64,000 nucleotides of DNA from Margaritispora aquatica (taxonomy: Eukaryota; Ascomycota; Leotiomycetes; Helotiales; Discinellaceae). The stretch is from NCBI GenBank assembly GCA_007644065.1, contig VJWN01000041.1:34187-98186 (forward strand). Reading direction: 5' to 3'. Positions 731 through 24,134 of the stretch are shown here, piece after piece. Within the stretch, counting starts at the first letter, position 1, and each line of letters starts with the position of its first letter. The translations under genes and the position numbers were made by a program. Under the pieces are notes generated by a model. The model had not been told where the DNA came from. It saw only the letters and a program-made list of their open reading frames with translations, and searched no databases.

Positions 731-789
731 CCAAGTCCTAAAAGTCTGATACTAACTAATTGCTTAAGAATACTATTGTAATTTTAAAT

Positions 790-3616: not shown

Positions 3617-5875
3617 CTTCCGCTTCCGGTAAGGCGAGACCTCTTAGAGAATTATTAACTACTTTAAAATCTCTAAACGCTTGAAATCTACTAGCACTAT
3701 ACTTTTGATCTCAGGATTCTATAACACATTCGGTAGCCGTATATCACGATGCTCTACTCCGTAACTTAATATCTTCTTAACTACCTTGTTCGTTTCTATA
3801 GCCAAATCCCGTCCTACTAGTATCGAATCCTTACGTACCTGCTCGCCTACCTATAAAATTAGTAGTATATGAACTATTCTAACCCTAAAGTCAAGAAAGT
3901 AAGGACGGACGAGAGAGACGTTTCTAAGGTAGACTGGTATAAGCTGTCCCTGAACTTCGTCTAAATATCGGTAGACCAATCCTTTATGCTTTAGCTCTGC
4001 TCGAAATGCCGTCACAGTCCTTTTTACAACGAAAGTATATCTATACGATTCTAGAGTTAATCTGAATAGAGTACCATAAGCGCCCTACTTTCTAAGTAGC
4101 TTATATCTATTGTTAGGGTCTTCCGCGAGCTAATATAATATAAGTTTCGTAAGGGCTTCCCGCCCTAAGGCATGTTTGTTGCCGGGTTTATAAGTACGAT
4201 GTAAGTTAATATTTAGACAAGAATCATCTAAGGGATATTTTCGTATAAGCCCTAATAAACAGACCTGTGTATAATATTATCGGCGACGAACATCGCTCTT
4301 TTTAACCGTTTACGATGATTTGACCGGACGTACCTGTCTAGGTCTAGACGGGTGTATACAAGCCCTTGACTTGCTTAGAGTTTCAATGTCTAAGGCCTTA
4401 TCTAATAAATTAGATAGAGTTTATAGATCCTCGTATATAATTATCTTCGTAGAACTATAGCTATTCCTTACTATTCGTAACTTCTTAGATCTTAATATAA
4501 AAGGTAACCGCTTAAAAGAATTAATTCGCGCCTAATATACTAAGGATAGAGGGGTTAAGGTATTCTCTTCGGTAGGAATTTGTTGCAAGATTGCTTCGTG
4601 ATTAATCTTAGTCCTATAGGTAGTCTCTAGTGTATGATTTCGCTATTTCTAGCTACGAGGCTTTAAGCCTAATGTCATTAAGCACAAGGTTAAGGTCTGG
4701 GCGACTATAGTACAATAAAGTAGGATATCGACATCGCTGTGCGCTTCGGCTTCGATGGTAGGCTCTGCGAGGTAATAGTAGAGAGTATATAGTTTATTCT
4801 CCTTAACCAAAAGGAAAACATCTACTTCTCCTATAGCTAATTTACTGTACTCAAGGCTGTTCTTAATTATATATCTATAAGTCTACGTTAAAGCTACCGC
4901 TGTAAGCCGCTCGGAGTAATATATAAACTTCTTATCTATATCGGTCGGTATTGTAATCCGATTAATAATATCCTTTAGAATATCTATAGACCCGTTGTTA
5001 GCTCGTAGAAGCCTAGCTCGTAAGTTGAAGGCCGATAGCTTGTAAGACGGTTTATATTCTATAAGCATATATAGGCTCCGTATTCCCTCTACGTCCTTGT
5101 ATATATAAATCTGATTAGCGTTCCGCGGTTTTTAGTTCGAGGTTAAGGGTTTTTCTTTGCCTAAGATACGTAGATCCTATAAACTTTGCTAGACCTCTTT
5201 ATTACTATCACTGAGCGTGTTAGTATAGTTTTCGAAAGTAATACCACTGTTTAAGCTAAACTTACAGCGAGTCTCTTCTATCTAAAAGAGATAGAAGATA
5301 ATGTATATCGTTGGTCGCTTAATTGCTAAACGCTAATATACCTCTAAATCCTTCTCGCTCGCTAATGGCCGGTCGTAGATATCCTGCCTAAGCTTAGTGA
5401 GATACTGAGTAGAGCTGAAAATTTCTGCTTCTCGTGGTATGTATTCGTAAACCCTTTTAAAAAGCTGCTACTGTAGGACTGGAAAGTCTTTCTAAGGCTT
5501 TAATAGATTTAGGTAGGTTTTGTTCTTCGGACTTATGATAGAGCTCTATGTACTAAGGCTCTTATTTGTCTAAATACGGAGTAGTTTCGAAAGAAATATG
5601 TGGCAATCGCGTATATACTCTTTAAATATTATAGATCTTGTCTTCTATTCTTCGATCTATATATAAGACTCTACTCTTTGTCGAGCTCGCTGCTTATCTT
5701 CCGTACGCTTTTGTTCTTGTTCTGTCCTCTTATCGGCTTCCTTCGTACGCCTTTGTTCCTGTTCTGCCCTCTTATTGGCTTCCTCTGTACGTCTTCGTTC
5801 CCGCTCTGTCCGCTCATAAGCTTCTTAAAGTAGTTGCTTAAGTCGTACAAAATCTAATTCCTACCTTAAGGACAT
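3617..5875 (-). pseudogene. Fungal kinase-like protein with coiled-coil N-terminus, RIP-inactivated
   Basis: ATG at 5873-5875 opens MSLR, then a Glu/Arg/Gln-rich coiled coil built from 14-residue repeats (5703-5828). The middle (about 5068-4700) contains IEYKPSYKLS, followed by LTAVALT and YYLAEP, features I know from a large Pezizomycotina family of kinase-like hypothetical proteins. The C-terminal lobe has YRYTFVVKRTV and LVYRYLDEVQGQLIPVYL (4040-3950), then VEHRDIRLPNVL followed by TAG and NPE (3770-3700), then IVLVDFKR. This resembles a kinase catalytic loop (HRD..N) and a DFG-position variant. In-frame stops are TAA/TAG at Gln and Trp positions; one TAG replaces the expected Trp after PNVL. 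Probably about 700 residues when intact. Substrate unknown. Confidence 0.72.
5703..5828 (-). repeat. 42-bp coding tandem repeat, 3 copies
   Basis: The motif GTACG recurs at 5703, 5745 and 5787, giving a 42-bp period. On the minus strand it encodes a 14-residue Glu/Arg/Gln repeat of the coiled coil in the kinase-like gene. The plus-strand frames open here are its shadow. Confidence 0.75.
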
Positions 5876-6237
5876 TTTATAAGAATAATATTATTTAGAG
5901 TTAAACCTAGTAACGGTGCGTTAAAGACACTAGGCAGATCACTTACTATTGTCCAGGTAACGTAGTACCAGGTAGTGTAGCCGAGTTACATAAACAGAAA
6001 AAAACACTTACCTCTAGAACTACGGAGGTATAGGGGGTAAATATTTACTTACCGCTTAGTTCTACTAGTACAAAACTCGAGTATCCAACCTTACCACTTA
6101 TAGTCCCGCAAACTATAATTTCATCTAAATGACTGATTACTTCTACGTCACCTAAGCTACCTAAATACTTATATTCTTCCCTTATCTCGAATCGTATATT
6201 AAGTAGCGTATACTAACTTCACCCTTAAACCAGACTC
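5876..6237. other. Intergenic, nothing recognised
   Basis: TA-rich sequence upstream of the kinase-like remnant. No coding or repeat signal was found. Confidence 0.4.
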
Positions 6238-7100
6238 TACGATTTCTATAATATCACGATATAACTCGTTTGTAGAGGTATTTAAAAATCTCGATATCGC
6301 TCTCGGGGATAACCAACGGCTTAAGGACTAGGTGTCCGTCTTTCTGCTAGACGAGGTGGTAGTTACTCAAATAAGAGAGATAATAACGCTACTAAACTAC
6401 CGTAAGGTCGTTAAGGACTAGTTACTAGTAGCTAGACACGTTAAAGAGAAGATAAAGAACTAATAAGCAACCCTAATAGAGAATACTCTAGTATATCTAG
6501 TAGAGATAAGATTAGGTCTACTTTCTATTTAAGATATAACGAGAGAGATTATTACTGTTAAGAACACTAGCTATAGGGGTAGTACTATACAATTCTTAAT
6601 TGTAGGTAAAAATTATATAGATATTAGGAACATATTATTCGGAGACAACGTAAAGCAGGTCGTAGGTACTATAAGTAAAGAGACGCTCCAGCACATATTA
6701 GCACACTTTCCCGGCCCCCTTCGCCACGAGCCAGGGAAGTAGCTTATAGAAGGAACGAGGGTATTATAGCTAAGAGTTAGCAATTAATAAACAATTACTT
6801 ACTCTAGTCTTCGTTATTTAGGACAGAAACCTTTTATATTTTTAACTAATCAAATCAGGATACTAGGTCTCTTAAAGAAGCTGACAGTCAAACAAGCCGT
6901 ATTGGTCCGCGCTTCTAGTAGTCGTACTATAGCCCTTTTATCCTTAAAAGGAATTAGTAAGTAGGTCCAAGATATAGGTAGTAACTAGTATTTATACTTA
7001 TAGGTTAGATTAGTATCCTTCCTCAAGGCGAGTATAGTCAATTATAGAAGAGATAGAAACGCTAGAGGAACAAGGGAATTATTATAAGTATATATAAGGA
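6238..7100 (+). pseudogene. Unidentified decayed coding remnant
   Basis: One plus-strand frame reads as protein over about 280 codons, with stops only of the TAG/TAA type. Readable stretches include VEVFKNLDIALGDNQRLKD near 6275-6330, VGKNYIDIRNILFGDNVKQV near 6605-6665 and ILAHFPGPLRHEPG near 6695-6740. I do not recognise a family. The frame ends near 7090, and the region to about 7380 reads poorly. The RIP-type stop pattern supports a dead gene rather than chance. Confidence 0.4.
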
Positions 7101-7381
7101 AGCGTTTAAAGTGGATTCAGTATAAGGGCAAGAAGGTATCGCGGATTTATTAGAACACAGTATAGCGTAATTTAGATGTACTAATGTTATTACCTATTAC
7201 TATCTACTCACATCCGTCGTCTCTTTCTACGTCCACCAAATTCAGTAGCAGCAGGACGCTTTCCTAGGATAGGGCTATCCTCCCCCGATTTCCGACGTAA
7301 AAAGCAAACACAATTGTCCTCTGCTAATAAGGATGTATTCTTATGATTCGGACGGCTAAAGAGGGTATGTATTATCTACTT

Positions 7382-7745
7382 TTTTTTAAACTACTCTATT
7401 GAACGTAAGAAGCTACTAATTCTATAAAGAAAGAGTTTGTTGAATACTAGCTGTATATTAACAACCTCGCTTAGGTAACGAACTTAGAAGGCAACGGACT
7501 TCTAATACCGTCCGTAAGTTATACACAGATCCGTATCACTAAGGCCTCCTAGTATAGTATTATTGTCGGTGACGAAGTTTGTATACAGAAATTCGAACGT
7601 AAAGTTCTCGATAAGTAAGCAGTTATCGGAGCTCTGGGAAAAGATAGAACCGTAGTATATATACAAATGACCTCTACGGATTAGAGGTACGTTCAGCTTA
7701 AAGAAGAAAGACGCCGCCTTAAATACCCTTGTTAAATCCTTCAAG
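7382..7745 (-). pseudogene. Unidentified decayed coding remnant
   Basis: A minus-strand open stretch of 80 codons (7502-7744) is rich in aromatic residues and includes LIRRGHLYIYYGS and LSDTDLCITYGRY. The frame continues past its TAA toward 7385 and upstream toward about 7800, with TAG/TAA stops. The family was not recognised. Upstream sequence (7800-8660) has many stops in every frame, so the gene limits cannot be set. Confidence 0.35.
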
Positions 7746-9300
7746 TCTCTAATATAAGATCGAGCTAGTTCTTAGAGTAAGACTATCTTATCCACTTTAT
7801 TAATCCTAGGCTTATAACTATTTAGAGGCAAATCAAGCCGGAAGTGATATGCCCTCGTATCCTACTCGAGTCTATAGAAGTGATCTCTCTAGTTGTTCTC
7901 CCCACTAAGAGATAAGGATAACATCGAAGCACGGTAAAGCCTTATTAAGGCTCTATCCTAGAAGAGGTTTCTGAAGTATGGTGCTCGCGGAGAATTAGGC
8001 TCTACCTGAAAACTAGTGCCTATCGAAACCACTAGATTATATTCGCCGTCTTTCTATACATCCCTAACTGCCCGTATACCTAGTTTGACCGGACTGTTAT
8101 ACTTGAGTACTCCGTCTTGGAATATACCGTATAGGAGTAGCTTCTTTGGCTTAAAGAACCTGTATATCTTAGCATCAATCCTATATAGAAAAGTACATGC
8201 TTACTATGGCGTAGCTGTGGTATATCTCGCCCTATCAATAAGTGCATTAGTATAGCCCGCTGATGGAGCAGAGAGACTTACGCTTCCTAGAGCTATATCT
8301 CTTCCGAAGCTTGCTAAGCACGAAAGCGTTTACAACCTACGGGCCCGTTAGCAGCTAGTCCTAGGAATAACACAGGATATATACGAAAGTCGTCCCCTTA
8401 CGTAGCCGATCCGTTATAATTAGAAAAGAGACACAGTATAGCATCCGATATCGTGGTCGCAGTTACGGCCAGCTTCATGCCCGAAGTCTGAGTGCTATTG
8501 GGACCGAAGAGCAAGCCTGTCCTAAAAGCTTCTCGAAGGTTAGCCTTTATCGCGAGATCATCGTACTACTTGTTAGCTAAGAAAGAGAAGAATATCTTCC
8601 GGAACTTTGCTAAGAAGGAGCCTTGGAGCCTAGACTATGTAGGAAATATACGTTAAGCGAAGCGATGATAAAATTCAAGGCTCTTTTTAGTGGTCTAGAA
8701 TTTTACAAACAAGGCTAAAACAGTCAAAGCACTTGCCGGATATTAGATAATTCTAAATAAAAGAGTAATTAGGCTAACCTAAGCTAGTCCTAATTACGAA
8801 ATCAAAATAGTGTTAAATCAGGTATAGCAAGCCTATAATATCTTGAAGTATATTAAGATAGATTAAAGAAATAATACCACGATAACTACTACTATTAATA
8901 CTAATTAAACGAGCACTATAAGTTAGAGGGAGCAATCTCACTTTAAGGTTACTTCTAGTGTCGTAGAACAAACACTTACTAAAAGAGAAGTGGTATTCAA
9001 GACCCTGTATAGGGACTCTATAAATATCTACATAAACATCGTATATTATATAACCGTAGTCGAAGGAGTACTCCGGTTTTCTCTAGAGGTAGTATAGACA
9101 TGTCGTGTTTAATCGGAGTAGGCTGAGCTAGGGAAGGTTCTATACGTACAAAGCAGCGCTCGTCTGACCTCTAGAGATTATCCGAGAGAACAGATCTACT
9201 AGATAACGCTTTATACTACATCGGACGAGCCGTATAGACATCTTATAGATCTCGGCAAAGGCCTTTAGACAGGGTTCGTCATATAGGGCATCGTAAACGT
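7746..9300. other. Degraded region, no gene recognised
   Basis: Short open stretches exist on both strands, for example 8016-8255 on plus, but none shows a family signature or a consistent RIP-interrupted frame that I could follow. Confidence 0.4.
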
Positions 9301-9307
9301 CAGATGA

Positions 9308-9604
9308 TTAGAAACCTAAAATAGTTAGCTTAGAGAACCCTTCTTGGTAAAAGCATATACTATGTATACCTGGTGGGTAGGTATCTATTAAAATAGTAGA
9401 GGCATAGATTATACTTACGGCTACAGGGAAAAAATCGCGATCTTTATAGAGTTTAAGATATACCGTTAGGTATCCCCTGAAGTCGGGATTAATAGGTGTG
9501 AAGTGTCGTGCAGCCGTCAACGGGTTAAAGGTCACGGTAATGTTACAAGTAAGGCCTTCTAAAGTACGTTCAAATAAAACGGATAGGTAGGTTGCTGTAA
9601 ACAA
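9308..9604 (-). pseudogene. Unidentified coding remnant, 98-codon open stretch
   Basis: A minus-strand open frame reads LFERTLEGLTCNITVTFNPL, then RHFTPINPDFRGYLTVYLKL, and continues downstream to about 8900 with TAG/TAA stops. Composition is protein-like. The family was not recognised; it may be an exon of a larger dead gene. Confidence 0.35.
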
Positions 9605-10473
9605 GGTCGAGGACTATACCCGTTAGAGTTATACTAGTTGCGACTCGTCGTTTAAGGTCTCTGATAAGTATCCTATATTAGCTTAACTTACTCTAGCGAT
9701 ATTGATAATTTTAAGAGTAGAGAAAGAGCTCCTTATATCAGGAATTAATAGTAGTCGGGACTTATATAACGTTGCTTCTAAAGAAAAAATAAGATCTTAT
9801 TCTTGTATTACAACTATAACCCGTGGAAGTATGTTTTTGGACATCTTTGATACTAACCTAAGTTCAGCCTAGGTGGTTAAGATAGCAACTACTCTAGCAA
9901 ACCTACTATAATTAGTACTAAAGAGACAAATAACATCCGAGAAGAGAAATATAAGCCTAGTACGAATTGATTTAACCACCTTATCTAACTATAGTATCTA
10001 TTCTACGGTAGGCGAGATAGTATGTAGTTGGACTTCGTAACATTGCTTGTCTGTTGACGGGTGAAATCGAGGTATCTCTAAAGTTAGTAAAGTATTAAAG
10101 ATAATAGTAGGGTTGTCGTTATTGATTGTATTAATATTAACAAAGGCGTTTACGATACTTTATTGTCTATAGCAAGGGATATAGTTGTTAGGAAAGAGTT
10201 TCTAAATAACTTTGTTTTTAAACGTTTTCCCAAGGAAGTAAATAATAGATAGTTATTAACGATTAGAATAAAGTAAATTTTTTACGAGGCGATCTAACCG
10301 TCGGCTATAGTGAACCGTGAAGTCGGTTTCGTCCTAGATAACCTAAAGTAATTTAGGATAAGTATATATTAAAATAGTATCGAATCTAGGAAAAGAAGTT
10401 TATAATATAATAGACTTTCTTCTTATTTATTTAAAAGCTTATTCTATTAATTAAAGGTTTTCCGGCCTTCGTC
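9605..10473. other. Intergenic, no gene recognised
   Basis: TA-rich sequence without a consistent coding frame. Confidence 0.4.
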
Positions 10474-10557
10474 TTCTAAGGCCTACTCTTTCTCGAGGCC
10501 TACTATCCTTCGAGGCCTACTTATCCTCGAGGCCTGCTCTCGTTCGAGGCCTGCGAG
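10474..10557. repeat. Short tandem repeat with TCGAGGCCT core, 5 copies
   Basis: The core CGAGGCCTRCT recurs about every 17-18 bp (10474-10557). The first copy reads TAAGGCCT and the last runs into GCGAGG. The array sits about 60 bp left of the retroelement's 3' LTR and is not part of it. Confidence 0.65.
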
Positions 10558-10617
10558 GTTTGTTCCTCTCTGAGATTATCTCCTTTCTTTAGAGTTTCTT
10601 TTTATCTAACGATATAG

Positions 10618-10621
10618 ATAT
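10618..10621. other. Left target-site duplication ATAT
   Basis: ATAT directly precedes the TG start of the left LTR and matches ATAT at 23889-23892 after the CA end of the right LTR. The wider flanks (GATAT and ATATC) are not a 5-bp match, so the duplication is scored as 4 bp. Confidence 0.6.
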
Positions 10622-10864
10622 TGTAAAGGCTACAAAACTGCTGTGCTACAGGGGGAGTAGTGTGAGAGGATAGGGTAGCACTAGGTCTATAACGCTCTGG
10701 TCTAGCACGTCTAATACGTAGGAAAAAGGGCCCGTCACATTAGTTGGGAAAGAAGAAGATGATTTGCTATGTAATATCGAGAGCTCCCTATAAAAGACCT
10801 ATCCTATATCACGTGCCCTGATCAGCTAACAGATCAGGTGACCGGCTAGCCCTTAACTACTACA
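10622..10864 (-). repeat. Left LTR (3' LTR of the element), 243 bp
   Basis: Starts TGTAAAGG and ends CTACTACA. It differs from the right LTR at six positions, all transitions in CpA/TpG context. Five of the derived TpA states are in this copy and one is in the other. Confidence 0.95.
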
Positions 10865-10868
10865 TTCG

Positions 10869-10882
10869 TCCCCCCCTCCTTT
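10869..10882 (-). other. Polypurine tract
   Basis: On the minus strand this reads AAAGGAGGGGGGGA, ending four bases before the 3' LTR. It is the expected plus-strand primer site of an LTR retroelement. Confidence 0.75.
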
Positions 10883-11037
10883 AGTAGTCGACCCTGACTA
10901 CTACCAGGCTAGGCACGCAACCTCCTCCATAGGCGACAAAATAGTACACCCGGTGTATGAAATGACAAAGCACTTTCGTTCAAACAGCGCTGCGGACGAA
11001 AGAAGGGAGAAGAAAAAAAGAAAACAGGAAGACTAAT

Positions 11038-13640
11038 CTATATTATACTTCTAGCATCAGCGTCTATTTTCTCTACAAAATTGTCTCGTCCCCTTGGAGC
11101 GCTTTCTTCTTTATTAGTGTCAAAACCTTCGTTATCCTCTAGAGTAAGAAACGGAATACTGTCCGCTTCTAGCCTTCCTAGGTAAAAGAAGTACGATTTC
11201 TTACTGAAAGCGCGACGCTCTTCCTGCTTGACCAGTTCGAAAGCTTCCTAAGCAACTGTTACAGCTCGTGCTCTCCAGTTCCGGATATACTTAGCGGCTG
11301 TTTCGTCAGACCCTGTGAGTAGCAGGTCTCTGTCCTTCAAAACCAACGGAGAATCCCAGCGCCTTCTATACACGAGAGCGTCTGACAAAGCTCCTAGACC
11401 CGTCACCTCAACTGTGGCTAGGAAACGGTATGGAATAGCACCGTATTTGTTGGCTAGACCGGATAGCGTGGCGGCAGGCGAAATCATATCTCTATGTGCT
11501 ATAGTAAGCATGTCCTATAACCCTCCTTCCACGACCTCCAGATTCTTGAGATCTTCTTGAAGCCCTACTAGCCACGGAAGCATCAGGCGCCGCTCTTTCT
11601 TGGCTGGGCCGTCTGTACCGTGTGGGATTTGGGGAACGAAAATGCGGGCTTGCTCTCTCTTTCCGGGCTTAAAGGCCTAGTCCACACCTAGTAGTTTAGA
11701 GTCTTCCTTGGTGAACATCTTCTCGGTAACCTTATGGACGAGGCTATCCGATCCTTGTCCTCGATCCAAAACTCTCTTCTACTAGGCTCTAAGACACCTG
11801 TGCATCCCTAGGATCATGACAGTGTAATTTGTCTCATCTTTATCATTTATTGAGACGAATCCTTAGATTATACTAGTGCCTCGCTACTTTTCTACCATAA
11901 GTGGGACGTTTAAGTCTATATGTCGGAATTAGGTGCTGTCTCCTTTCACATTGTATTTGGCATAGTACGGGTAGGACACGAGTCTCTATTGCTTGTCTGG
12001 ACGGAGTGCAGCATAGGCCGTATAGTAAACAGGATCCTGGCGCATTAATTGTTGACTAATCGAGAAGAACATATTCCGTAGCCATCCGTAGTTCGTAATC
12101 CTATTGATTTGTCTTAGATAGTGTTTATACATGTCGAACTCCTAGTCCACGATCGCACTAATAGGCGTTTCCTACTACTATGTGAAGATGTTTAGTGCAA
12201 CGGTACCTTCATTATCCTAGACCTTTATGTCGATTCTATCGCAAATTCGTTTCTGCACGAGACTCTGATCAAAGTCCTACTGTTTTATACCGTCGTTATG
12301 GTGGAACTTGTAGGGGCCTAGGTTGTCGGAAGGTCTCGTAGGCCGATTTCCTTTTCGGAACTATCGGTACGTTGTCTTGTCGGTTTTCATTTTTCCTAGA
12401 TGTAGCTTGTTCTTGTGTATAATTTTTAGTCTCTGGTTTATGACTTCTGTATTAAGGGTTTTGACGCGTAGGCCCACGTGAGCAGCAACGCCTTTCGTGT
12501 GTGCGAAACAGACTTTCCTGAAACCCATTATCTAGTCTAGTAGCTTTAGGTTTACGAACTCCTCGTAGGTGGCAGTTTTGAGTACTATCTGCTTATAGGA
12601 ATCCGAGACCTCCTCCGAGCACTCGCAGTTGCCTTTTCTCCGCTTCCTGGGCCGCTCATCGTCGTCCTTACTGGCTGATGCGAAGACTGGGAGGCTCGCT
12701 TCTTCGACTTCTTTGGCCGCCTCCTTCAGGGCTGCTTCGTCGACTGTATATTGTACAGTTGTAGCTTCTAGTTCCTTGTCTTGTAGGGCACTTTCGTCGA
12801 TATACTTAGAGGCCGAAGTTTTACTCCGCGGTGAAGATTTAGTTTTCGAGGGGTCGCTACTTAGTTCGTGTATTTCACGCGCCGGGAGCGGGAAATCGGG
12901 GCTCGGTTTAGGTTCCGCGATGTCTATGATCTCTTGCTGTCCCTCCTCAATGAGGCCCCCGCGGCCGATTCTCATTCCGTGACCAGCCAGCTGCGCGTTC
13001 GTGGGGTTTTCCGTGGCGCTTGACTTGCTTGCCTTGTCTAGGTCCGCCGTTTCAACCGTCTTTTTACTTGAGATCCCTTTTCCGCGCTTGTTTAGGCGAT
13101 TGATGATTTCGTTGTTGATTCTAACTACGGCTAGTTCCTAGCTACATGCGCTAGACAGTTTTCGGATCTCGGCTATAAACCTCTACGAGACCTTCTCAGA
13201 ACTTACTGTCCTACGTTTAGTTAGGTACTCGATAATGTCCTCGTCCTAGTTACTAAGGGCAGCGCGCCTAGCTTCGTCGATCCTATCTCGTCGCTCCGTA
13301 TTGTTCTTGATCACAACGACGGCTTTACTCTAGCGCGCTAGGAATTCTTCTTTAGAGATGGTCGCTCTAAAGGCCCTATCCTCCCGGATGTACTTGAAGA
13401 TCTCTTCGACCGTATCGCCCGAATTAGTATAGTATCTAAGTATCTGGTCCAATACCTCCGCTTGTACATCGCTTCTTTCGCGCTCATCTTCAATGCTCTG
13501 CATAAAGCTTATAGCGTCCTTAGTCGTTTCGATCTGGATTGCTGTCCCTCTAACCGTGATCTGTTAGTTGGGTTCGTCTATTGTTCTTCCGGCTATCCTG
13601 TGGCGGGTACTCTCGATCTGGTTAGTGCTCTCTGGTGCTA
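11038..13640 (-). pseudogene. Accessory Fe(II)/2-oxoglutarate dioxygenase-like gene of the retroelement
   Basis: A single minus-strand frame runs for about 870 codons with no frameshift seen, broken only by TAG/TAA. The N-terminal 250 or so residues are charged and helical. A basic patch, RPRKRRKG, near 12650 may be a nuclear signal. The C-terminal half contains FRHIDLNV (HID at 11914-11922), then LGMH. About 100 codons after the HID comes IPHGTDGP (His at 11620-11622), followed 10-11 codons later by paired Arg (11587-11592). HxD, a distal His and an Arg about 10 residues on is the iron and 2-oxoglutarate binding layout of double-stranded beta-helix dioxygenases such as phytanoyl-CoA hydroxylases. 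The call rests on this spacing, not on overall identity. No initiator ATG is evident; the natural stop is probably the TAG at 11038-11040. It lies in the element's sense orientation, just before the polypurine tract. Substrate unknown. Confidence 0.5.
12872..12896 (-). repeat. Near-palindromic 25-bp motif, copy 1
   Basis: On the minus strand this differs at one position from the copy at 17152-17176. It lies inside the dioxygenase-like gene and encodes PLPAREI. Confidence 0.7.
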
Positions 13641-14009
13641 GTAATAACACCCTTCTATTATCGAAATAGTTTAAAACTTTTTGGTGAAGTTTTTGGAATC
13701 AAATTCCCTTTTGAAGTCGCTGAAACTCTATTGTTAAGTTACTATCAATTCAGCTTTTTGGCGTTAGGTCAGGTGACTTTTTCGCTTAATTTAGGACGAA
13801 TTTAGCTTTTTAGCCTCTTCCCTTCTAGATTCCTAATTATTTATTCGCGATTTCGTTATAAATTCCTTTAACTTTTTTCAAACAATTTCGATTATAGTTT
13901 TCGGTCTATATACCTTTCCCTTCCTTCCTCTGACCCCTCTCCTTATACGGCAGTACTTATACCAACTCACAGCTTGTAGCTCCGTTACCTTCCCCGCTTT
14001 GGTGTAACC
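13641..14009 (+). promoter_or_regulatory. Upstream region of accessory gene A, duplicated before gene B
   Basis: This gap separates the divergent dioxygenase-like gene and gene A, so it should hold both 5' regions. The block 13763-13913 matches 15773-15920 upstream of gene B. The first 31 bp (GTTAGGTCAGGTGACT..) match at 28 of 31 positions. A later 53-bp stretch (13861-13913) is again clearly similar to 15868-15920. Conserved spacing ahead of two paralogous genes suggests shared promoter elements; no TATA box was assigned. Confidence 0.5.
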
Positions 14010-15443
14010 ATAACTCCTCAACCTAAAGCAGATGAACTAGCTACCCGTAAGGTTCTTAATCCCGCTGAAGGCACTATACATATATGTGACCTTATTGACA
14101 TAGCCAAGGACGGTGTGTACAACAAGGATATTCTATCCTCGTACTTAGTCGGCCTCGTTGCTCTTTCTGTTAAGTTAGGGATCATTTCGGCATAGGAGGG
14201 TTCTCTGTTCCAAATTCCGTTCGTCAAGGGTCCTAAGCTCCGCGCTAATACTATCATGATCGGCGATCCTTGCATTGGTCCTAATGGCCTTGTATTAGCT
14301 ATCGACGATGTCATCCTCCGCGGCGGCCTTGATTACTATGAGCAGCATGCTAACCCTGGCATCTCACTGCTCGGCATTGAAGGTATCAAGACCCACGCTA
14401 ACTTTGAAGCATAGAAGCGAGACTACTTTTTTGCTGGCGGCAACAAGGGCTCTGGTGTTTATGATCGCGTTGGCAGTCTCAATAGCCTGAAAACCATTGA
14501 TGCATACGTTAATGGTCGCAATTACACTCCCGGTCCTAACATAGTACTCCAGAACACTCTTAAGCCTCGTAGTAGTTCACGCTCTTCTCGCGCCTCCGGC
14601 TCCGCTTCTCAGTCACGCTCTCAACCTCGCACTCCGTAAGTCCAGACCGCTCCAGTTTAACCCGCCCCACCGCAGCCCGCTCGTAACTCCGGCGGCGAAT
14701 CTAGCAGAGCTACTCCCGTCCCCTCAAATAACAAGAAACGCAAGCGCTCGTCTACTACGCCTAAGTCTTCTGAACGTATCACACCCGCAGACGACGAGGA
14801 TTTTGCGAGCCCGGCGCGTGAAATAAAGGCGGAGGGTTCCGGCAGAAAGAAATCCAGAACTAGAAGGCAAAAGAGCAAGTAGAAGGAGGACAGTCCCGCC
14901 GTTGATTCGGATGGTGCCACCGGTGGTATGACTAAGGCTGAATTTCTTCGGGATTACAATATTCGACTCTACGGCCGCTCCACCACTCCCGAGGCTGGAA
15001 CCCCAACGCTCCCCTAACCTCACGACCCTGAACTGCAGGAGCTCGTTGATAGTGTGATGTTCGATTCTCTTCTACATAATAGCGATAATGGCGGGGAGAA
15101 GGATGACGAAGGTGAACAGGTCCTAGCTATTGCGTCTTCCCCCGCTATTCTTAGACGTCTGACCAGTTCGCTACTTTCCTTCCTCTCGCAAACTCCGGCT
15201 ATCGATAGTAACGTAAGCGATGACAATGATAGCGAGTCCGCCGGGGAGGGTGCTAAGCGTAGTGGACATGATTCTGATGGTGACTGGGATAGCTTGCCTC
15301 GACCACGTCGTAAGGGTAAGGGAAAGGCTAAGAAGACTCCTGTCAAGGCTACTTCTAAGTCAGTTAAGACTCCAACCGAGCGGGGTACTAAGCTTAAGCT
15401 TGTCGTGTCTTGCAAGGCGGGTAGTCGCGGTAGAGAGAACTAG
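14010..15443 (+). pseudogene. Accessory gene A, opposite strand to gag-pol; paralogue of gene B
   Basis: Frame of 477 codons ending at TAG 15441-15443. The initiator is probably the ATA at 14010-14012, aligned with the ATG of gene B and explained by a TpG-to-TpA change. The N-terminal domain (residues 15-120) shares with gene B the pattern G-[ST]-I..DLI.IA[KR]DG..N..LSSYL.G, KLG, KG..L, IGDP..GP and DD[VI][IV]L..NPGI. The C-terminal two thirds are Ser/Pro-rich with KKRKR near 14730, the PAREIKAE motif near 14817, further basic runs, and acidic stretches near 15085-15240. It looks like a nuclear, nucleic-acid-associated protein, but I do not recognise the family. Six internal TAA/TAG codons break it, including one each in the W/Q-type positions IISA*EG and FEA*KRD. 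It is transcribed toward the integrase end of the element. Confidence 0.6.
14800..14824 (+). repeat. Near-palindromic 25-bp motif, copy 2
   Basis: Identical over its last 15 bases to the copy at 17152-17176, with four differences in the first ten. It lies inside gene A and encodes ASPAREI. Confidence 0.6.
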
Positions 15444-15986
15444 GTCTTAGTCGCTCCCTTTCTATTCTTTTGTTCTTCGTATAGGTTTTCTTTCTCGATA
15501 GGTCCTCTTGCCTAGCAATTTGATTAATGCGTCCGGTGTGTAGTTCGCGGGTAGCGCTTATGAAATACAATGGTTTTTACAAACAGAAAGATGAAATTTA
15601 AATATAATTTTGAAGTGTAATATAGTAAGCGGCTAAATCCGTGAAATATAGTGATAGGGAGAGAAACAGAAAACAAAAACAGCGGGGATAAAGGAAACGT
15701 TCTTTGCTCGTCACAGCAGTTAGTTGTACGGGCTCTCCTCCTCTCATTCTTATGATGTATTACTACGGCGTCGTTAGGTCAGGTGACTTCCTCGCTTAAT
15801 TCAAGAATTCGACTTTTTTGCTTATTTTAGCTCGCTTTTTCAGCTATTTAGCTTTTATTTCGGTCGTAATTCCTCCAACTTTTTTCAAGTAATTTTAAGT
15901 CCAGCCTTCGGTCTACATACTCTTCTCTTCTCGTCCGCTTATCGGCTAACGATCGTAGGTTACCCCTGGCCTATCTTCTCGCGACT
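15444..15986 (+). promoter_or_regulatory. Gene A downstream and gene B upstream region
   Basis: It contains the second copy of the duplicated upstream block (15773-15920), ending 67 bp before the ATG of gene B. The first 300 bp hold no ORF and probably include the 3' end signals of gene A. Confidence 0.45.
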
Positions 15987-16757
15987 ATGAGTACCCCTCT
16001 GGAACGTGCTAGGGTCTTCAATCCCCCAGCGGGCTCCATTTATGTCAGCGACCTGATCGCTATAGCTCGCGATGGCATTCACGCCAATAACTACTTGTCA
16101 TCCTATTTGATGGGTACGCTCCTGTTTAGCTGTAAGCTCGGACTCGTTAACCTAGAGGACCTTTCACTTTTTAAGCTTTCTTTTCCTAAGGGTGCCCGTC
16201 TTCTTCCCAGCACGCTTTTGGTTGGTGACCCATACCTTGGCCCGGATACTGCACTTATAGAGTTTGACGACATCGTCCTCTATAGCTGCCATTCCTACTA
16301 CAAGGATAAGGACGATCCAGGTATTACTCCAAATTCTCTTGAGGAGCTTGCGGGTCATCCTCGTCTTGACAGGTAGGTTCGAACCAACCTTTACTACGGC
16401 GGTAGCGAGAACGATCGCACCTACGTTCGAGCTTATGGTACAGAAGCGGGCAAGGTTGATCTTAGTCCAAACACAGTTCCTTTCGACGAGTCCGACTTTC
16501 ATGTCGCACGTAAGCTCCGTCCTTTCTCCTAGCTACGCCAGTACCGTTTTAGTCAGGCCAGAATCCGCTTTCCCGCTCCCAGCAAGCCTAAGAAGAAGCT
16601 TAATCCTTCCTTCGACTATACCTACCGTCCTAACTTTGGTAAGACCGAGGAAGAACAAGCTCGCATAGATTCCCTCGAACACCGAATTACGTATATAGAG
16701 AGGAACCGGTTCTTTTCGAGGGTATGTTTACATCTTCTAAGCAGCTTTCGATTATAA
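15987..16757 (+). pseudogene. Accessory gene B, opposite strand to gag-pol; paralogue of gene A
   Basis: ATG at 15987 opens MSTPLERARVFNPPAGS; the frame runs 256 codons to TAA at 16755. The first 130 codons are uninterrupted. There are two internal TAGs (after PRLDR at 16374 and after RPFS at 16530). The N-terminal domain aligns with gene A over about 110 residues. Beyond that B is shorter, ending in a Lys/Glu-rich segment (FGKTEEEQARIDSLEHRI) that looks helical, and it lacks the long Ser/acidic tail of A. The family was not recognised. Shared upstream sequence and tandem order show that A and B arose by duplication of a whole gene unit about 2.0 kb long, then diverged strongly in protein sequence, so the duplication is old relative to the LTR divergence. 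Confidence 0.6.
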
Positions 16758-17187
16758 AAAAAAAATCTAATAGTTATTTTAGTATTAGAGGTCGGTTATA
16801 GTTTCTAATATAGGTCTGAATCGCTCTTCGGAGTTAACGCTCGATATGTTTTTCTCTTCGCTAGGTCTTTTGCTTCGGCCTATTATGATGTACTTTTAGT
16901 ACGTCTTACGAATTTCCTCTTAGGGAGTAAAAATAGAAGTCTTACGTGTAAAATAAAATCAAATCGAAACTTCGTAGCAGGGGAAGTAGAATTAAGCCTA
17001 AAATTTTATAACAAAAGAAAATAAACAAAACGAGGGTAAACATAGCTTCCTTTTAAAGGGCGGGTGTAAATAGAAACGAAGAAAGTTAAGAAAATTTTGG
17101 TGCCGGCTAAAACTCCAGTCGCTTACTCCCTTCTCCCCCTTTTTTTTTTTCATTTCACGCTCCCGGCGCGTGAAATAGCAATCTTTC
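16758..17187. other. Spacer between gene B and the end of pol
   Basis: Converging 3' ends of gene B (plus) and gag-pol (minus). It is A/T-rich with an A run at 16755-16764 and a T run at 17139-17150; no gene was seen. Confidence 0.5.
17152..17176. repeat. Near-palindromic 25-bp motif, copy 3
   Basis: ATTTCACGC and GCGTGAAAT form perfect 9-bp inverted arms around a 7-base centre, just downstream of the pol stop. A plus-strand frame reads FTLPAREI, matching the peptide encoded by the other two copies. Confidence 0.75.
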
Positions 17188-20100
17188 TTACTTCTCTATT
17201 ACCACCGTAAAGCGGCTTCCCCCTGGAATTGCCTTCCTGCGTCGATCTTGGCTTTCCAGCTCTTGCTGTCTACTCTCGGCCCCTCGCGTAGTTGCCTGTA
17301 CCCGCTTACCTTCTCTATTAGAATCTTCGGTATTGCTTCCCGGCACGCTCGCGCCCTCCGATGCTTCCTCCTCGGTTCCACTCTCGGGCTCTACCGGCGT
17401 CCCGCCTCGGATCTCCGAATAGTTTTTAGGTACGAATCCTTTTAGCCTATTGCCAGAGTATGTCCCTTTTATTAGTGTTCCATCTAGCTCTTCAAGCGTG
17501 TAGGTTCCCTTCCGATTTGCAGATGTTACTCTAAACGGGCCCAACCATCTATAGCCTAGTTTAGACCTAACGGACATGTCGATCTCTTGCACTATATCAT
17601 AAAGTAGAACCAGTGCGCCGACCATCAATTCCTCTCTTCTCAGGCTCTACCATTCATCGAACGCTTCTTTTCCTTCCAACCTTTTCCTTCGTACCATTAA
17701 CCGAGCCTCCTAGAGGTCCTCTTCTTTTCTTTTCAGCTGAATAGCTCTTTGCTGTAGTAGACTCGTAGTATCCTTGACTTTACCCTAGTCCCTTAACCTC
17801 CATATCGGCAGACTTATCTCAATAGGGAGAATCGCTTCTCGACCGTATAATAAATAGAAGGGGGTTTGGTTAGTAGTTACCTTTGTCGTACATCGATCAG
17901 CAAACAGAATAGCCGCAAGATTTGTCACCTAGTCCCCCTCCCCTCCATCGGTCATTTTCGCAAGTGCATCGACAACAGCCCTATAACCCCTTTCAACCAT
18001 TCCATTTGCTTTTAAGTTATATACCGATATCACTACTCTCTTGATACTATATCTTTTCATAAAGTACTCGACGTGCTTCTTGTTTTCAGGGCCTCCATCA
18101 ACCACTAGCCTTCCAAAAACCCTATAGCGACATACAACCTCTTCCCATAGGAACTTGGCTACCGATTTGGAAGATGCCACTCCTAAGGCTCTGGCCTCCA
18201 CCCACCCGGAAAGATCCTCCCTAGTAGCTACTATATACTTCTTGCCTTACGCGTTCGGCATATAGACGATATCGAGCCCCACCTTCGACCATATACCAGA
18301 CGTCCAAGTCGCAAATAACTCCTCGGGTTTTTGATTACCCGTCCGTAATTGGCAGTTCTCGCAACTCCTTATATACTTAACGCAGTCCCCGTAGTATTCT
18401 TTCCAGTAGTAGCGGTCCGTAATTCGCCTATAGGTCGCTTCCCTTCCCTTATGACCTATATCGTCATATATACTTTTCAGGATCTCATGTTTCTCTCCCA
18501 CGGAATCCACTACTCTAGTTTGAGGGGTGCTCTTTGTCGCTCGTCGGTATAATACGCTATTTTGGACCAGGTGTTTCAATGCCTCCGTCTTAAAACGTAA
18601 GTACTCTTTACGTTCCATCCTATCAGGTCTTCGTAATGTAGTTAACTAATTTACGATAGCTTTCGATTTTACACTCTACGTATCCCCCTCCAGATTGTTC
18701 TGTATCTCTTCTCGTTGTAGTACGTCTGAACTATTTTCGCTAGCTAAAAGGGGGGCAATCCTAAGGTAGTTTAGCTCCGCTTCTACATAGTTATCTAGAT
18801 CCGTATTTTCTTCCGTATCCGATTCTACTTTTGGCCTTCGTGACAGACTATCCGCTACTGTATACTTCTTCCCTAGCACGTGTCTAACTTCGAAGTCGAA
18901 TAGCTGAATCCAGGCTAGCCATCTTGTTACTAAAGCCCCCGGCAGATCAGCGGCGCCCCTGTTCAGTTGAGCTACTAAGATATTCGTATCAGTTTCGAGG
19001 ACAAATAGCATACCGTATAGCCACGCTTTGCACTTCTTTAGAGCTTTGAGTACCGCTCTACACTCGCGTTTTGTAGCGTTATACCACGCTTTAGCTTCCG
19101 TCTAAATTCCGCTTTCGTAACGACACGGGTGGCGAAGGCCTTCACTGTCAACTTGCATCAGCACTACTCCTTATCTAGTTAGACTTGCATCGGTGGCGAG
19201 TATAATTTCTCCCGCCCCCTTGCTGTATTCTATCTTGACTAGAGCTGGCGCCGTCGTTAGTGCCTCCTTTAGCGTATTTATAGCTTTTATCTATTCTTCC
19301 CTCCAAGCAAATAGGGTGCCTTTCTTGAATAGCTTATAGATTGGCTTTGTGATCTCTCCAAACTTCGGTATCCAAATTCTATAGTAGACGTATACCCCGA
19401 CGAATGCTCGAGCCTCTCTAATATCTTTGTAGTCACTCTACCGAAGGATCTTGACTACCTTAGAGCTACTAGGGCGTCTCCCGTCTTCATTACACACGAA
19501 CCCCACAGCATTAATACTATTAACGTAGAATTGGGACTTAGGACTAATCGTACAGCTAGCTCTTTCGATATTAGCCAGCACCTTACTTAGGTTTTGTAGG
19601 TGGAGGAGAACAAATTTCCGTATCCCGGGTACTACCTCCTTATCATTGAACCTAGAGTAAGGGCCTTTTACCCCGACATCGTCCACGAAAGGGAAGCATA
19701 TGTTTAGGATATGTTCACGGAGAATCGTAGTTACGATTCTACAGAACTGGGCTACCGAGTTTGTCGCTCCTTAAGGCAATGTCGTCTGGCGTAATAACCC
19801 TAAAAGCGTTATAATAGCCGTAAGATCTCTGCTTGTTTTAGCTAAGTCTATCTGGTCGTATCTTAAGAAGAAGTCGATAAGGGAAGCAACAGCGTACCCT
19901 GCAAATTCTTCCGAAAACTCGTCGACAGAAGGTAGTAGATTCGTATCCCTAATGGTAACACTGTTCATTTTCATCGCTGCGTTGATAAGCCTGTATTTAT
20001 TTTCCTTCTTTTTGACCAAAAACCAGGGATTCCTGTAGGGCCCATAGCTATGCTCCAGAACACCTCTGTCCAGTCTGTCCTGCACCATCTCTATGACGAT

Positions 20101-20390
20101 GTCTCTCAAGGATTTAGGTACAGGGAATCTAGGTTCTTGCTATGCTTTATGCTCGATAGTTCGAATCTCCTGTAGAGGCGCTACTTTAGGTTTGACTTTC
20201 CTATATTCCGAGAAATCGAAGGCAATAGCTGCTTCCCGATAGTAAAGCATCTCCTCTAGTAACTCTCTCTCCTCCTTCGTTAGTTCTTCTCCCACTACTA
20301 AGGTATTTAGCCGCTCCCGCGTTAGTCGTTGTCCTTTCTTTAGTGTCGAAAATTTTGGTTCAAACTAATGATTATACTTTCTAATCTGCT
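17188..20390 (-). pseudogene. pol: Gypsy pol: reverse transcriptase, RNase H and integrase, RIP-inactivated
   Basis: One frame from about 20390 to the TAA at 17188 encodes RT, RNase H and integrase. The RT fingers/palm segment (DRGVLEHSYGPYRNPWFLVK) begins near 20070. A QGATNS-type motif has its Gln as TAA near 19770, and the catalytic FVDDVGVKG is at 19660-19689. RNase H shows ATDASLTR near 19190 and ETDTNILV near 18980, and ends with VADSLSRRP. Integrase has the HHCC finger (GHKGREATYRR to CENCQLR, 18460-18345). Its core has GLDIVYMP (18265-18285), VVDGGPEN (about 18090-18110) and NGMVERG (about 18000), giving DD35E. A GPY/F module (WLGPFRV near 17535) follows, then an acidic tail. No chromodomain was seen. 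About 12 TAA/TAG stops. This frame is shifted by -1 relative to gag-protease. Confidence 0.9.
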
Positions 20391-20899
20391 CCGTCCCTTT
20401 TGCGCCCTGAATAGCTTTCGCCTTCTATCCAATTTCTCCTCCCGGGTTAGTCCCGTCCGACGTCCCTAGGTTTACGGGTATAACTTTTACAGCTTTTCTT
20501 TTATATACTACAAACACTTTCCCCTTTTTGGTGAATCTAGCAATTAACTTTTAGGCTGTCCAGGTATATCTTGTCGTCTAATAGTAGCGCCCGGGTCCCC
20601 GTTTAGATTCGTTCTCACCTGTACCTCGCTTACTTAGCTTATTTCTTACGCCCGGCTCAAGAAATGTCGAACTACGTAGACTTCCAATTCTACCTTCTCG
20701 TATCCCAGATTCCTCAATAAACTCTAGGCTTCCTATAACAAATGAAACCTTCTTACCTACCTTTTTCTTTTCCGGGGTTCGCTCTCTGCCGGCCCTCTCC
20801 CCGCTCAGGACGGCTAATCTTCCCCCGATTCCCTGCTCCGCTCTCCCGGAAGCTGTGCGACTCTTACTCTCACTTCGTTACCGCCTTTTAGGTCCTATA

Positions 20900-23577
20900 T
20901 TACGGCGTATTGCCCATCCTTCCTGTATTCGTATGAAAGCCGTATAGTAAAGCTAAAAGGTTAACCGAGTAAAAGAGCGTGGTCTCCTTCCTTTGCAACA
21001 TAGAGGTGTTGTAGGACTCGAATCCCTCCGATCTCAAGCTCGACGTTTTCATATATGCCATTAAAGTAGGATGCCTCCCCGCTATACGGAATCATTATCA
21101 TACTATTATTCCGTCTAATTGCTAGTCTAACGGATGTTGCCAGCTCTCTGGTTATAACATTCATTTCCGCACCGGTATCTAGTAGCGAGAAGGTCGGGTA
21201 GCCGCCGTTCACTAACACTCTAGCTTTCGGGCTGTCCGTAAGAAGGAATGGCCTACCTTTTAGGGCATTTATATGACCTACTCTCTTTCCCGTTAGAGTG
21301 TCGTCGATAACTTCTGATCGTTTGAACAGTAACTCTCTAATCTCACTGGAAAGACCGATGAGCTCCTCTATAGAGATTTGTAACTCCCTACCTAGGACTC
21401 TGTTCAGTATCTCTTACGGGTCCGAGCGAGCTTTAAGGCGGTCCTCTAGAGTTTCTCTTTTCTTTCGTATTCTAGTAGTTTCTTCAACAACTTCCTTCTT
21501 TTGTTTACTAGTAGCTCGTGTACACGGAGCCTTAGGCTTGGTGTCCATTATCTCAATATCCTCTTCTTCTGAATCGGCATTACTTCTAACCTGGCTTCCT
21601 TTCGGCACTTTAGGTGATATATACTTCTTTTCTTCATTTCTCCGTTTCTTCATCACCTTTTTTGTATTCGTCTACTTGTCGTCCTTTGGATCCTTTTTCT
21701 TACTTCGGACAGCTCTTACCCCAGCGCCCTTAAGCCCCTCTGAGTCGGAGTCTTCTTTAGAACTTAACTTAGAGTCGACTTTATTGGATACCTAATACGC
21801 TCTTAGTACGTTATTATTGGACGGTTTCTGTATCACAGTCACTAGCTTCGGCGGCTCCTCTTCCTCCACGCGACTTAACTACTGTTGTGACTGCTGCTGC
21901 ATCCCCCCCATCCCTTCATACTGCTGTCTGTTAATGGGCTGCTAAGGCGAGGGGCCCTACCCTCTACTTCCTATCCGAAGGTTGTTTTGTTGTATAACTT
22001 GTTCTCTCTCGGTCGTACCTCTATACTTGAACATTACTCTTGCTCCCGGTGTGTACGGTCCGACTGCAATCTTATTTATATCATTTATATGGCAGTACCT
22101 CGCCTAGATGTCCTAGTGTAGCATTTCGTATTCCCTCTTAAAATGTCCTCGCCCTCCGTAGTAGTAGCATCTACTCGATCCCTGACTATTCCTGCTCATC
22201 ATTGCGTTGAGATTGGATACTAGGGTTTCCTAGGTTCGAGCGTCTTACTAGCTATAAGGCTATAGACCGCGGTACTGCCCTTAGGGGTAACCTTGATTTG
22301 CTACGCCGGGTACGGGAAATCTAAGTGTCTGCTGCTTTGGTATACCTTGTAGCACAGCAAGTAAGAGTTTCTATATTCCTTAGACAATGTCCGATAGCTA
22401 AGCTTCTACCCCGCGATCTACTTGTATAGGCTGAGGTACAACTAGCGGGGCTAACTTGAGGTCCAGAGCGACCGCCTCCCTTTTCTTTTAAGTTTGTTCA
22501 ACGAGCTTCTATATGTCCTTATCTACTACTCTTGTTCCTATAAAGTCTCGAACAGTTTTATTCGTTGTGTCAATATCGATAATAGTTTTAGCTATCTTAT
22601 CGAACTTGACCGTACTTGGCTACTCAGTTTTAACTTTATGCTTCCGAATAACTTTGTCTCGAATACACGTCGGGAGTCCGTTCAAAAACTATATTCCCCG
22701 CGTATATTTATCTAGGATTTACTTCTTAGTAAAGTGTTTAGAGATAGCCGTGAACTGTCTTACATACTGTCTCAAATCATCCGTGTCTTTACGCGGGGTG
22801 CTTGTAAATGTTTCAAGGAAGCGTCTTAAGAACATCTACTAAAATACGTCCTGATCTTTATATTCAGAGAGTAAGGCACTCTTGAAACTAAGCCAGTCCT
22901 TCAACCCATACTTAGGTATATTCTTGATGAATTGTCCGACAGTGGTTTCGTAGTATCGCGGCAGCCTCTTCGTTATCTTATTATCCCTAACTCTATGGTC
23001 TGTACATAGCTCTTCAAATCTGTCCAAAAACTCTGTCACATTCGCTCCATCGAAGTAGGGTGCTCTAGGAGCTCCCGCTAGCGGTATAGGTACGCGGAAG
23101 GTCACCATTCTACTCTGATCTCCTATAATTAACGTGTTCCTCAGCGCTTCCTTAGGCTCTTAACTTGGTTCTACTGATAATTCCTCGGTCCGATCGATCT
23201 CTCCTACTAGTATTTCTTCGAATAAGATATAACTCATCAACAAGTCGACTACCTTCTGTACCGTTTTTACTATCAATGCCCATGCACACAGCGTTGTCCA
23301 TACCGTCTCTATTAGTACCGTCTCTCCCAAGAGTAGGAGTTCTTCTCCCCTCTTCTTTTCTTCCTTCTCTTTTTCGTTCCTTTCCTTATTCTTTTCCTAA
23401 GTAGAGTATATATACTCCTTGTCTTTCCTTACCTTCGATTTATTTTATCCTAGCCTTCGTATTTTCCTACCTATATTCGCGATTCTAGGTAAGACATTAA
23501 TCTCCGCTCTCTTCCGTCCTCCCTACCTATCGTTTTCTGTATACTCTTTTATCGCCTCCTGTTCGTTTTCAACTACA
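20900..23577 (-). pseudogene. gag: Gypsy gag and aspartic protease, RIP-inactivated
   Basis: The frame is followable from about 23577. A Lys/Glu-rich stretch is followed by capsid-like sequence beginning RVPIPLAGAPRAPYFDGAN (about 23095), with FLDRFEELC and LPRYYETTVGQFI. This is typical of Gypsy Gag. A zinc knuckle lies near 22121-22175 and reads C-YYYGGRGH-FKREY. The second and fourth ligand cysteines of the CX2CX4HX4C motif are Tyr, as expected from TGC/TGT to TAC/TAT changes. A highly charged linker follows (KKRRNEEKK near 21650). The retropepsin domain has LLDTGAEMN at 21161-21190 and ALLLG near 20961. Stops are TAA/TAG. The protease is in the gag frame, while RT is in the -1 frame. The start codon is not certain. 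Confidence 0.85.
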
Positions 23578-23628
23578 AAAAACCGTAACTAGACTAGTAT
23601 GTATATAGATCCTTCCTATAAACAAAGC

Positions 23629-23644
23629 CTCTCGTCGGGCGCCA
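23629..23644 (-). other. tRNA primer binding site
   Basis: On the minus strand TGGCGCCCGACGAGAG begins one base after the 5' LTR end. TGG is the complement of a tRNA CCA tail, fixing the transcription direction. The priming tRNA was not assigned. Confidence 0.8.
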
Positions 23645-23645
23645 A

Positions 23646-23888
23646 TGTAAAGGCTACAAAACTACTGTGCTACAGGGGGAGTAGTGTGAGAGGATAGGGT
23701 AGCACTAGGTCTATAACGCTCTGGTCTAGCACGTCTAATACGTAGGAAAAAGGGCCCGTCACATTAGTTGGGAAAGAAGAAGATGATTTGCTATGTAATA
23801 TCGAGAGCTCCCTATAAAAGACCCATCCCATATCACGTGCCCTGATCAGCTAACAGATCAGGTGACCGGCCAGCCCTCAACCACTACA
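23646..23888 (-). repeat. Right LTR (5' LTR of the element), 243 bp
   Basis: Same length and ends as the left LTR and 237/243 identical. It contains a CACGTG site and an inverted repeat CCTGATC..GATCAGG (23841-23862). Confidence 0.95.
23811..23820 (-). promoter_or_regulatory. Candidate TATA box of the 5' LTR
   Basis: The minus strand reads CTTTTATAGG in the LTR, upstream of the PBS. The same decamer is in the left LTR at 10787-10796, untouched by RIP. Confidence 0.5.
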
Positions 23889-23892
23889 ATAT
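23889..23892. other. Right target-site duplication ATAT
   Basis: It directly follows the CA end of the right LTR and matches 10618-10621. Confidence 0.6.
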
Positions 23893-24134
23893 CTTTTTAA
23901 AAAGATTACGGTGTATGTTTCTAGTATCAGTTATATAATAAATCTCGCTACTAATATAAGAACGAGCTCTAGTGTCAAGAGTTTTATTTAGGAATAAGAG
24001 TAATTGTAAAAGTATAATATTTTGTTAGGGGATTTTTTCTCTAAGTATAAAACAATTTAAAGTATAAGTAATCCGATCTATAAACAATCTTAAATATAAG
24101 TAGTCCAAACCTCTAAATAACCCCGTATTCCGTA

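Follow-up and report, generated by a model that had tools for sequence, protein, structure and literature searches.

The closest described systems fall into four groups, summarised here from the accessible parts of the papers concerned. Boty elements of Botrytis are fungal Gypsy retrotransposons with an antisense gene, brtn, between pol and the 3' long terminal repeat (LTR) (PMC7264820, PMC8365987, PMC4227169); Boty is reported to have a chromodomain and, at a solo LTR, a 5-bp duplication (PMC4227169), and further additional open reading frames are predicted in Botrytis elements (PMC8365987). A 25-kb orchid Ty3/Gypsy element contains an AlkB-type 2-oxoglutarate-dependent dioxygenase domain (PMC9289625), and plant Retand elements have a pol-to-3' LTR stretch of 2.9 to 6.6 kb with antisense frames and a TRP28 domain (PMC11963269). 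Finally, fungal DNA transposons and Helitrons carry TET/JBP dioxygenases, for which the authors propose a countering of methylation and hypermutation; section 4.2 of that 2025 survey of dioxygenase-carrying fungal transposons reports no retrotransposon with a TET/JBP enzyme (PMC12730594). Here, we analyse a Ty3/Gypsy LTR retrotransposon on the minus strand of a 64,000-nucleotide stretch of DNA from Margaritispora aquatica (the window, part of contig C36 of a genome assembly of 42.4 Mb in 49 contigs).

This element has 6.3 kb of cargo (10865 to 17187), which extends from the integrase frame, ending at 17188, to the 3' LTR and comprises one frame in the element sense and two antisense frames, as a preliminary description had claimed. 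We think it probable that the element represents a Ty3/Gypsy family with a standing module of three genes after pol and before the 3' LTR, which transmitted a dioxygenase gene together with two antisense genes and was later hit by repeat-induced point mutation (RIP). The cargo genes are as follows:

11038 to 13596, minus strand: sense gene, PhyH/DUF1479-type 2-oxoglutarate dioxygenase family (start set by likeness to the homologue P0001)
13980 to 15443, plus strand: as1, which is paralogous to as2 and has a long charged tail (from frame, copies and paralogy)
15987 to 16757, plus strand: as2 (from frame, copies, paralogy and genome search)

The module belongs to the element

As an integral part of the element, the module moved along with it. 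The whole cargo is present on three contigs, C36 (copy A, in the window), C15 (copy B) and C43 (copy C), with copies B and C being 93% to 95% identical to the window in DNA searches. All 3 contigs that span the stretch from pol to the 3' LTR carry the module, and no copy without it was found among them. Copies A and B, the latter also with both LTRs, are complete insertions with distinct target duplications (ATAT and CTAT, respectively). Copy C lies on a contig that starts within the element, and 27 bp of its 3' flank are common with copy B. Copy D (C22) is truncated by the contig start, extends through as2 and is 74% identical, and in copy E (C17) an LTR piece adjoins a stretch that resembles the final part of the sense gene (72%, 186 columns). 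Three more contigs (C42, C5 and C30) have 5' ends of the element and stop short of the cargo. The 5' flanks in A, B, C42, C22 and C5 are unlike one another.

An LTR search gave 19 places, several of them partial or without adjoining internal sequence. Contigs C22, C30, C42, C43 and C5 begin or end in or near the element. Because the assembly breaks there, copy numbers from the repeat searches are lower bounds, and the searches may have overlooked copies that lack the module. A mirrored LTR pattern on C13 (7195 to 11998 and 116459 to 121252, approximately 110 kb apart) was considered as an exact palindrome and rejected, the pieces being 51% to 68% identical when aligned ungapped.

The preliminary description had looked to independent LTR-bounded copies for support; in the source genome, the two complete insertions and the 3 spanning contigs provide this. 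It had also named cargo-free copies, or cargo occurring alone, as signs of a one-off capture: the former are absent from the contigs spanning the site, whereas distant relatives do occur alone (of as1/as2 on C9 and of the sense gene on C12). The observation itself is confirmed, and its interpretation is partly supported: the module is part of the element, the sense gene is dioxygenase-like and the antisense genes are paralogues, while a benefit to the persistence of the element, for instance by altering host silencing, would be a guess.

Few shared stops in the cargo frames of RIP-mutated copies

The cargo differs among A, B and C at 555 sites (ungapped in all three), all of which are transitions, and 435 of these are C/T before A, or the mirror image. 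Between A and B, with the sites gapped in C added, 6322 sites were compared; 371 of them differ by a transition and 1 by a transversion. The copies were thus almost identical prior to mutation. Copy C differs from A in gag-pol by 8 transversions and 76 gap columns, which we have taken for poor sequence at the contig end. For the element and the window flanks, TA/AT is 1.37 to 1.54 and (CA+TG)/(AC+GT) is 0.53 to 0.77, compared to 0.75 and 1.25 in a comparison region (C22:10001-20000). At 36% G+C, both window flanks (1 to 10600 and 24000 to 64000) are AT-rich, and their RIP indices are strong. RIP mutations mark each of the copies A to D; therefore, the module did not protect them.

Beyond what the preliminary description had reported, the cargo genes are interrupted. 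Copies A, B and C have 21, 23 and 23 stops in the sense frame, 7, 13 and 11 in the as1 frame, and 2, 1 and 2 in the as2 frame. Judged by the stops common to all copies, the cargo frames are nonetheless more than chance: such stops number 10 in the 839 codons of the sense frame (22 to 52 in the five other frames), 2 in the 488 codons of as1 (8 to 46) and 1 in the 256 codons of as2 (6 to 16). Stops in any copy give a weaker contrast (sense 34 versus 39 to 80; as1 19 versus 18 to 92; as2 3 versus 8 to 30), by which as2 is clearly apart from the other frames, the sense gene slightly and as1 not.

Since most stops are TAG, recoding of TAG as a sense codon was considered; it is rejected by the tryptophan comparison, the unshared stops and the RIP dinucleotide make-up. 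Stops aligned to a tryptophan of P0001 number 13 of 21 in A and 9 of 23 in both B and C, the tryptophan codons retained relative to P0001 are 4/21, 8/21 and 8/21, and 25 of the 35 stop positions in the sense frame are not common to all three copies. Copy D was tried as a diverged relation for testing selection on as2 and rejected, given that transitions make up 1643 of the 1662 differences between D and A in gag-pol. By this pattern D is a heavily mutated member of the same family, and a codon-position test on as2 with it (7 transversions, P=0.10) was dropped for that reason.

The sense gene is of the dioxygenase type

The assignment of the sense gene to the 2-oxoglutarate/Fe(II) dioxygenase family, with a predicted PhyH/DUF1479 fold and conserved catalytic residues, is well supported and agrees with the dioxygenase-like gene of the preliminary description. 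A protein search yielded 59 homologues, among them long open relatives in public data, other fungi included. The predicted structure of a relative has the double-stranded beta-helix typical of the PhyH/DUF1479 class, together with a helical N-terminal half outside the enzyme domain. With P0058 left out because alignment A1 shows no triad in it, the HxD...H iron triad and a distal arginine are found over the other 58 of the 59 homologues. The role of these residues is assigned by likeness to the superfamily.

A viral fold library gave 13 matches at the E<=0.001 threshold, and several of these carry the name phytanoyl-CoA dioxygenase and come from giant viruses and phages. No relatives of the sense protein were found in the searched collections of viral contigs, genome contigs and plasmids, and PADLOC gave no match for P0001 or the open as2 piece. 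The Pfam matches of the 58 family members at E<=0.01 include no TET/JBP profile, a comparison of limited sensitivity; Pfam presumably contains a TET/JBP model. A tree of 46 of the 59 homologues (at least 450 residues) is weakly resolved, with the Botrytis/Monilinia rows apart. A sequence distantly related to the sense gene lies elsewhere in the source genome, on C12 (L029:1387-1848); it lacks the HxD motif, and its DNA shows no RIP marks.

The antisense genes have a relative outside the element

As the preliminary description had it, as1 and as2 are, by their likeness, paralogues (36% over 140 residues, E=1e-31; 50.5% of bases). Their differences by codon position are 75, 42 and 91 (P=1.2e-4), position 2 being the most conserved. 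In its own genome, the open as2 piece matches both antisense genes in A, B and C, copy D in two pieces, and a frame on C9 (L062:1021-1617). The latter is intact and lies outside the element (29% over 119 residues to the as2 piece, E=3.5e-12), has no Pfam match, and is surrounded by DNA with 40% to 49% G+C. Five neighbouring frames were scanned, giving one RmlD/epimerase, one with PH domains and three with nothing; none of the five has a retroelement domain. The antisense family thus has a relative in DNA that looks like the host's own, and may have moved in either direction.

Upstream blocks and shared words

Approximately 160 bp upstream of as1 are repeated upstream of as2 at approximately 70% identity, and several short words recur within the element:

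13762 to 13923, plus strand: as1 upstream block, flanked by as1 and the sense gene, which start divergently
15772 to 15930, plus strand: as2 upstream block, approximately 70% identical to the as1 block
13769 to 13777, plus strand: TCAGGTGAC word, from window search; also at 15779 to 15787, 10834 to 10842 and 23858 to 23866
12871 to 12897, minus strand: palindrome-like word encoding DFPLPAREI, in the sense gene
14799 to 14825 and 17151 to 17177, plus strand: like palindrome-like words
10949 to 10964, plus strand: a poorer word of this kind

The four window occurrences of TCAGGTGAC, one per upstream block and one per LTR, compare with 0.14 expected, and 0 of 100 shuffles reach 4 occurrences. A longer form of the block word, with two mismatches allowed, has 12 genome matches versus 11 for the reversed control; all 6 matches with 0 or 1 mismatch are within A, B and C. 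We infer that a shared regulator might act on blocks and LTRs via TCAGGTGAC.

The sense protein (DFPLPAREI) and as1 (DFASPAREI) have a motif in common, and an HFTLPAREI reading at 17151, just beyond the pol stop, is in the as2 frame in A and not in B. A PAREI pattern, built post hoc, has 3 matches in the six window frames, all within the element, and occurs in 15 of the 33 homologues of at least 750 residues versus 0.13 after shuffling. The 16-mer CCCGGCGCGTGAAATA (at most 1 mismatch) occurs 10 times in the genome, always in A, B or C, with 0 for the reversed control; a fourth CCCGGCGCGTGAAATA-like place is near the 3' LTR, outside the three frames. The palindrome-like word, of 16 to 26 bp, is thus seen at four places in the module, two coding (PAREI) and two apparently noncoding. 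The recurring PAREI/CCCGGCGCGTGAAATA word may be a protein motif, a DNA site, or both.

Architecture of the element

The remaining features of copy A are:

23646 to 23888, minus strand: 5' LTR, 243 bp (LTR pair comparison)
10622 to 10864, minus strand: 3' LTR, 243 bp (LTR pair comparison)
23889 to 23892, minus strand: target duplication ATAT, 5' side (flank reading)
10618 to 10621, minus strand: target duplication ATAT, 3' side (flank reading)
23631 to 23645, minus strand: stretch TTGGCGCCCGACGAG resembling a primer-binding site, adjoining the 5' LTR
22839 to 23159, minus strand: gag, open piece of 106 residues, assigned by position; no Pfam match
20961 to 21413, minus strand: retropepsin piece (PF13975, E=1.8e-7, above cut-off)
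19438 to 20139, minus strand: reverse transcriptase, two open pieces (PF00078, weak, E=0.028 and 0.13)
18676 to 19101, minus strand: RNase H piece (PF17917, E=3.9e-7, above cut-off)
17188 to 18645, minus strand: integrase, zinc domain to C-terminus (PF17921, E=6.5e-16)
10865 to 10882, minus strand: polypurine tract, a purine run directly before the 3' LTR

The LTRs and polypurine tract were recovered as previously described; the LTRs have TG...CA ends and differ at 6 of 243 sites, each a transition. Of the claimed primer-binding site, the stretch TTGGCGCCCGACGAG after the 5' LTR stands, whereas a single exact tRNA-gene pattern built from this stretch has 0 matches in the genome. The claim of a complete gag and pol holds for the order protease, reverse transcriptase, RNase H, integrase, with integrase last as in Gypsy elements; gag is placed by position only. 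Pfam cut-offs are exceeded by retropepsin, RNase H and the integrase zinc domain, while reverse transcriptase and the integrase core score lower in this mutated copy (integrase region, PF00665 E=0.12 and PF24626 E=0.19). No chromodomain match was found after the integrase in 17188 to 17646 (Pfam; mutated copy), and Rfam has no match within 10500 to 24000. Directly after pol, a purine run on the minus strand (17127 to 17151) resembles a second polypurine tract; its length varies among copies.

Possible mechanism and alternative explanations

In the reading that we favour, the sense gene and as1 would be fired divergently out of one 0.4-kb stretch at 13597 to 13979, and as2 from the duplicate of the as1 upstream stretch, perhaps through TCAGGTGAC, the word common with the LTRs. 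With lower confidence, the dioxygenase might act in the element's favour by oxidising a metabolite or a mark on nucleic acid, chromatin or elsewhere, and the antisense proteins might be its partners, as hinted by the short PAREI-type motif common to the sense protein and as1. RIP would have mutated the copies afterwards.

Several points weigh against this reading. Copy C may be a duplicate of B's insertion, leaving only two independent complete insertions, and by any-copy stops three other frames are at least as clean as that of as1. Between as1 and as2, transversions alone (43/25/33 by codon position) are not significant (P=0.09); a protein search with both found no homologue (scoring for as1 was limited to the 7995 candidates with the most words in common), and the as2 fold model is useless (predicted local distance difference test score, pLDDT, of 46). 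The TCAGGTGAC and PAREI words were spotted first and then tested, and when any 9-mer common to both blocks is allowed, the LTR match has P=0.037 (2000 resampled LTRs). The Pfam PhyH profile is matched by 7 of 58 relatives at E<=0.01, P0001 not among them, and P0001 itself has no Pfam match at all at that threshold. The NCBIfam methylphosphonate hydroxylase is matched by 8 of 58 (best 1.7e-5), so that small substrates are indicated no less than nucleic acid. Beyond the source genome, an association of the sense gene with retroelements is putative, as are the substrate of the dioxygenase and the expression and activity of the module.

Some of these points fit a passenger module, a metabolic or detoxifying PhyH-type enzyme with two host-derived genes and no role in silencing, which we entertain as a tentative possibility. 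Apart from the methylphosphonate hydroxylase matches, the closest folds with a named activity are the small-molecule enzymes GriE, SnoN and EctD, and both the intact relative on C9, near RmlD/epimerase and PH frames, and the distant one on C12 are compatible with a host origin. The presence of the whole module in all 3 spanning contigs and the helical half of the modelled relative, beyond the enzyme domain, argue against a mere passenger. Conversely, the dioxygenase and two antisense-coded partners, with co-regulated internal promoters, could form a fixed counter-defence versus methylation-linked silencing or RIP, as a PhyH-branch retroelement counterpart of the TET/JBP DNA transposons; this we judge unlikely, and a role against silencing is a guess.

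Quite doubtful, too, is that the antisense stretch acts as RNA, with transcripts from the two upstream blocks running against the genomic RNA and controlling it, and the frames being minor. Antisense promoters and a role of this kind have been considered in plant elements (PMC7264820), and the upstream blocks are better kept than the coding DNA between as1 and as2 (approximately 70% versus 50.5%); the scarcity of all-copy stops, the conservation of codon position 2 and the intact frame on C9 speak against it. A one-off capture or nested transposon in the window copy has hardly any chance of being correct: like 16-mers at the pol and LTR sides of the module could pass for flanking repeats, and there is a 26-nt inverted pair (96%; 12871 to 12896 with 17152 to 17177), but the idea is largely refuted by the copies at different sites (A, B and C, partly D and E), window positions 1 to 25000 have no inverted repeat of at least 60 bases, and none of the six short inverted pairs brackets the whole module.

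Comparison with known systems

The favoured reading, a family with a standing module, would make this a fungal retrotransposon transmitting a dioxygenase of a non-TET/JBP branch in a genome with strong RIP marks. The long open relatives make its substrate directly testable. Should it act on nucleic acid or chromatin, retroelement counter-defence becomes testable; if not, the element stands as a well-documented carrier of metabolic cargo among LTR elements. Among the open-access matches listed (titles and abstract beginnings), there is no description of a dioxygenase gene plus antisense genes in a fungal Gypsy element. Retrotransposons with extra genes are already known, and the combination was, as far as found, not in print. 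The preliminary description's "not a described type" therefore holds for the combination, while Boty brtn and the orchid AlkB domain are each known from the accessible parts of the papers cited above, to which the following comparisons are likewise limited.

Like Boty, the Margaritispora element is a fungal Gypsy with antisense coding between pol and the 3' LTR; it has two antisense paralogues and a sense dioxygenase gene where Boty has one antisense gene, and 4-bp duplications and no chromodomain match (in a mutated copy) where a 5-bp duplication at a solo LTR and a chromodomain are reported for Boty. BRTN is likened to as1/as2 by position and strand. With the orchid element it shares an added 2-oxoglutarate dioxygenase frame in a Gypsy, of PhyH/DUF1479 type and accompanied by antisense genes in a fungus, in contrast to the AlkB-type RNA demethylase in a 25-kb plant element. 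Retand has a similarly long pol-to-3' LTR stretch with antisense frames, but is a plant lineage with TRP28, and the accessible text mentions no dioxygenase, whereas the fungal element has a dioxygenase gene. Finally, as in the TET/JBP systems, a fungal transposon carries a 2-oxoglutarate dioxygenase; those are DNA transposons and Helitrons, while here the carrier is an LTR element and the gene is PhyH-like, with no TET/JBP membership implied.

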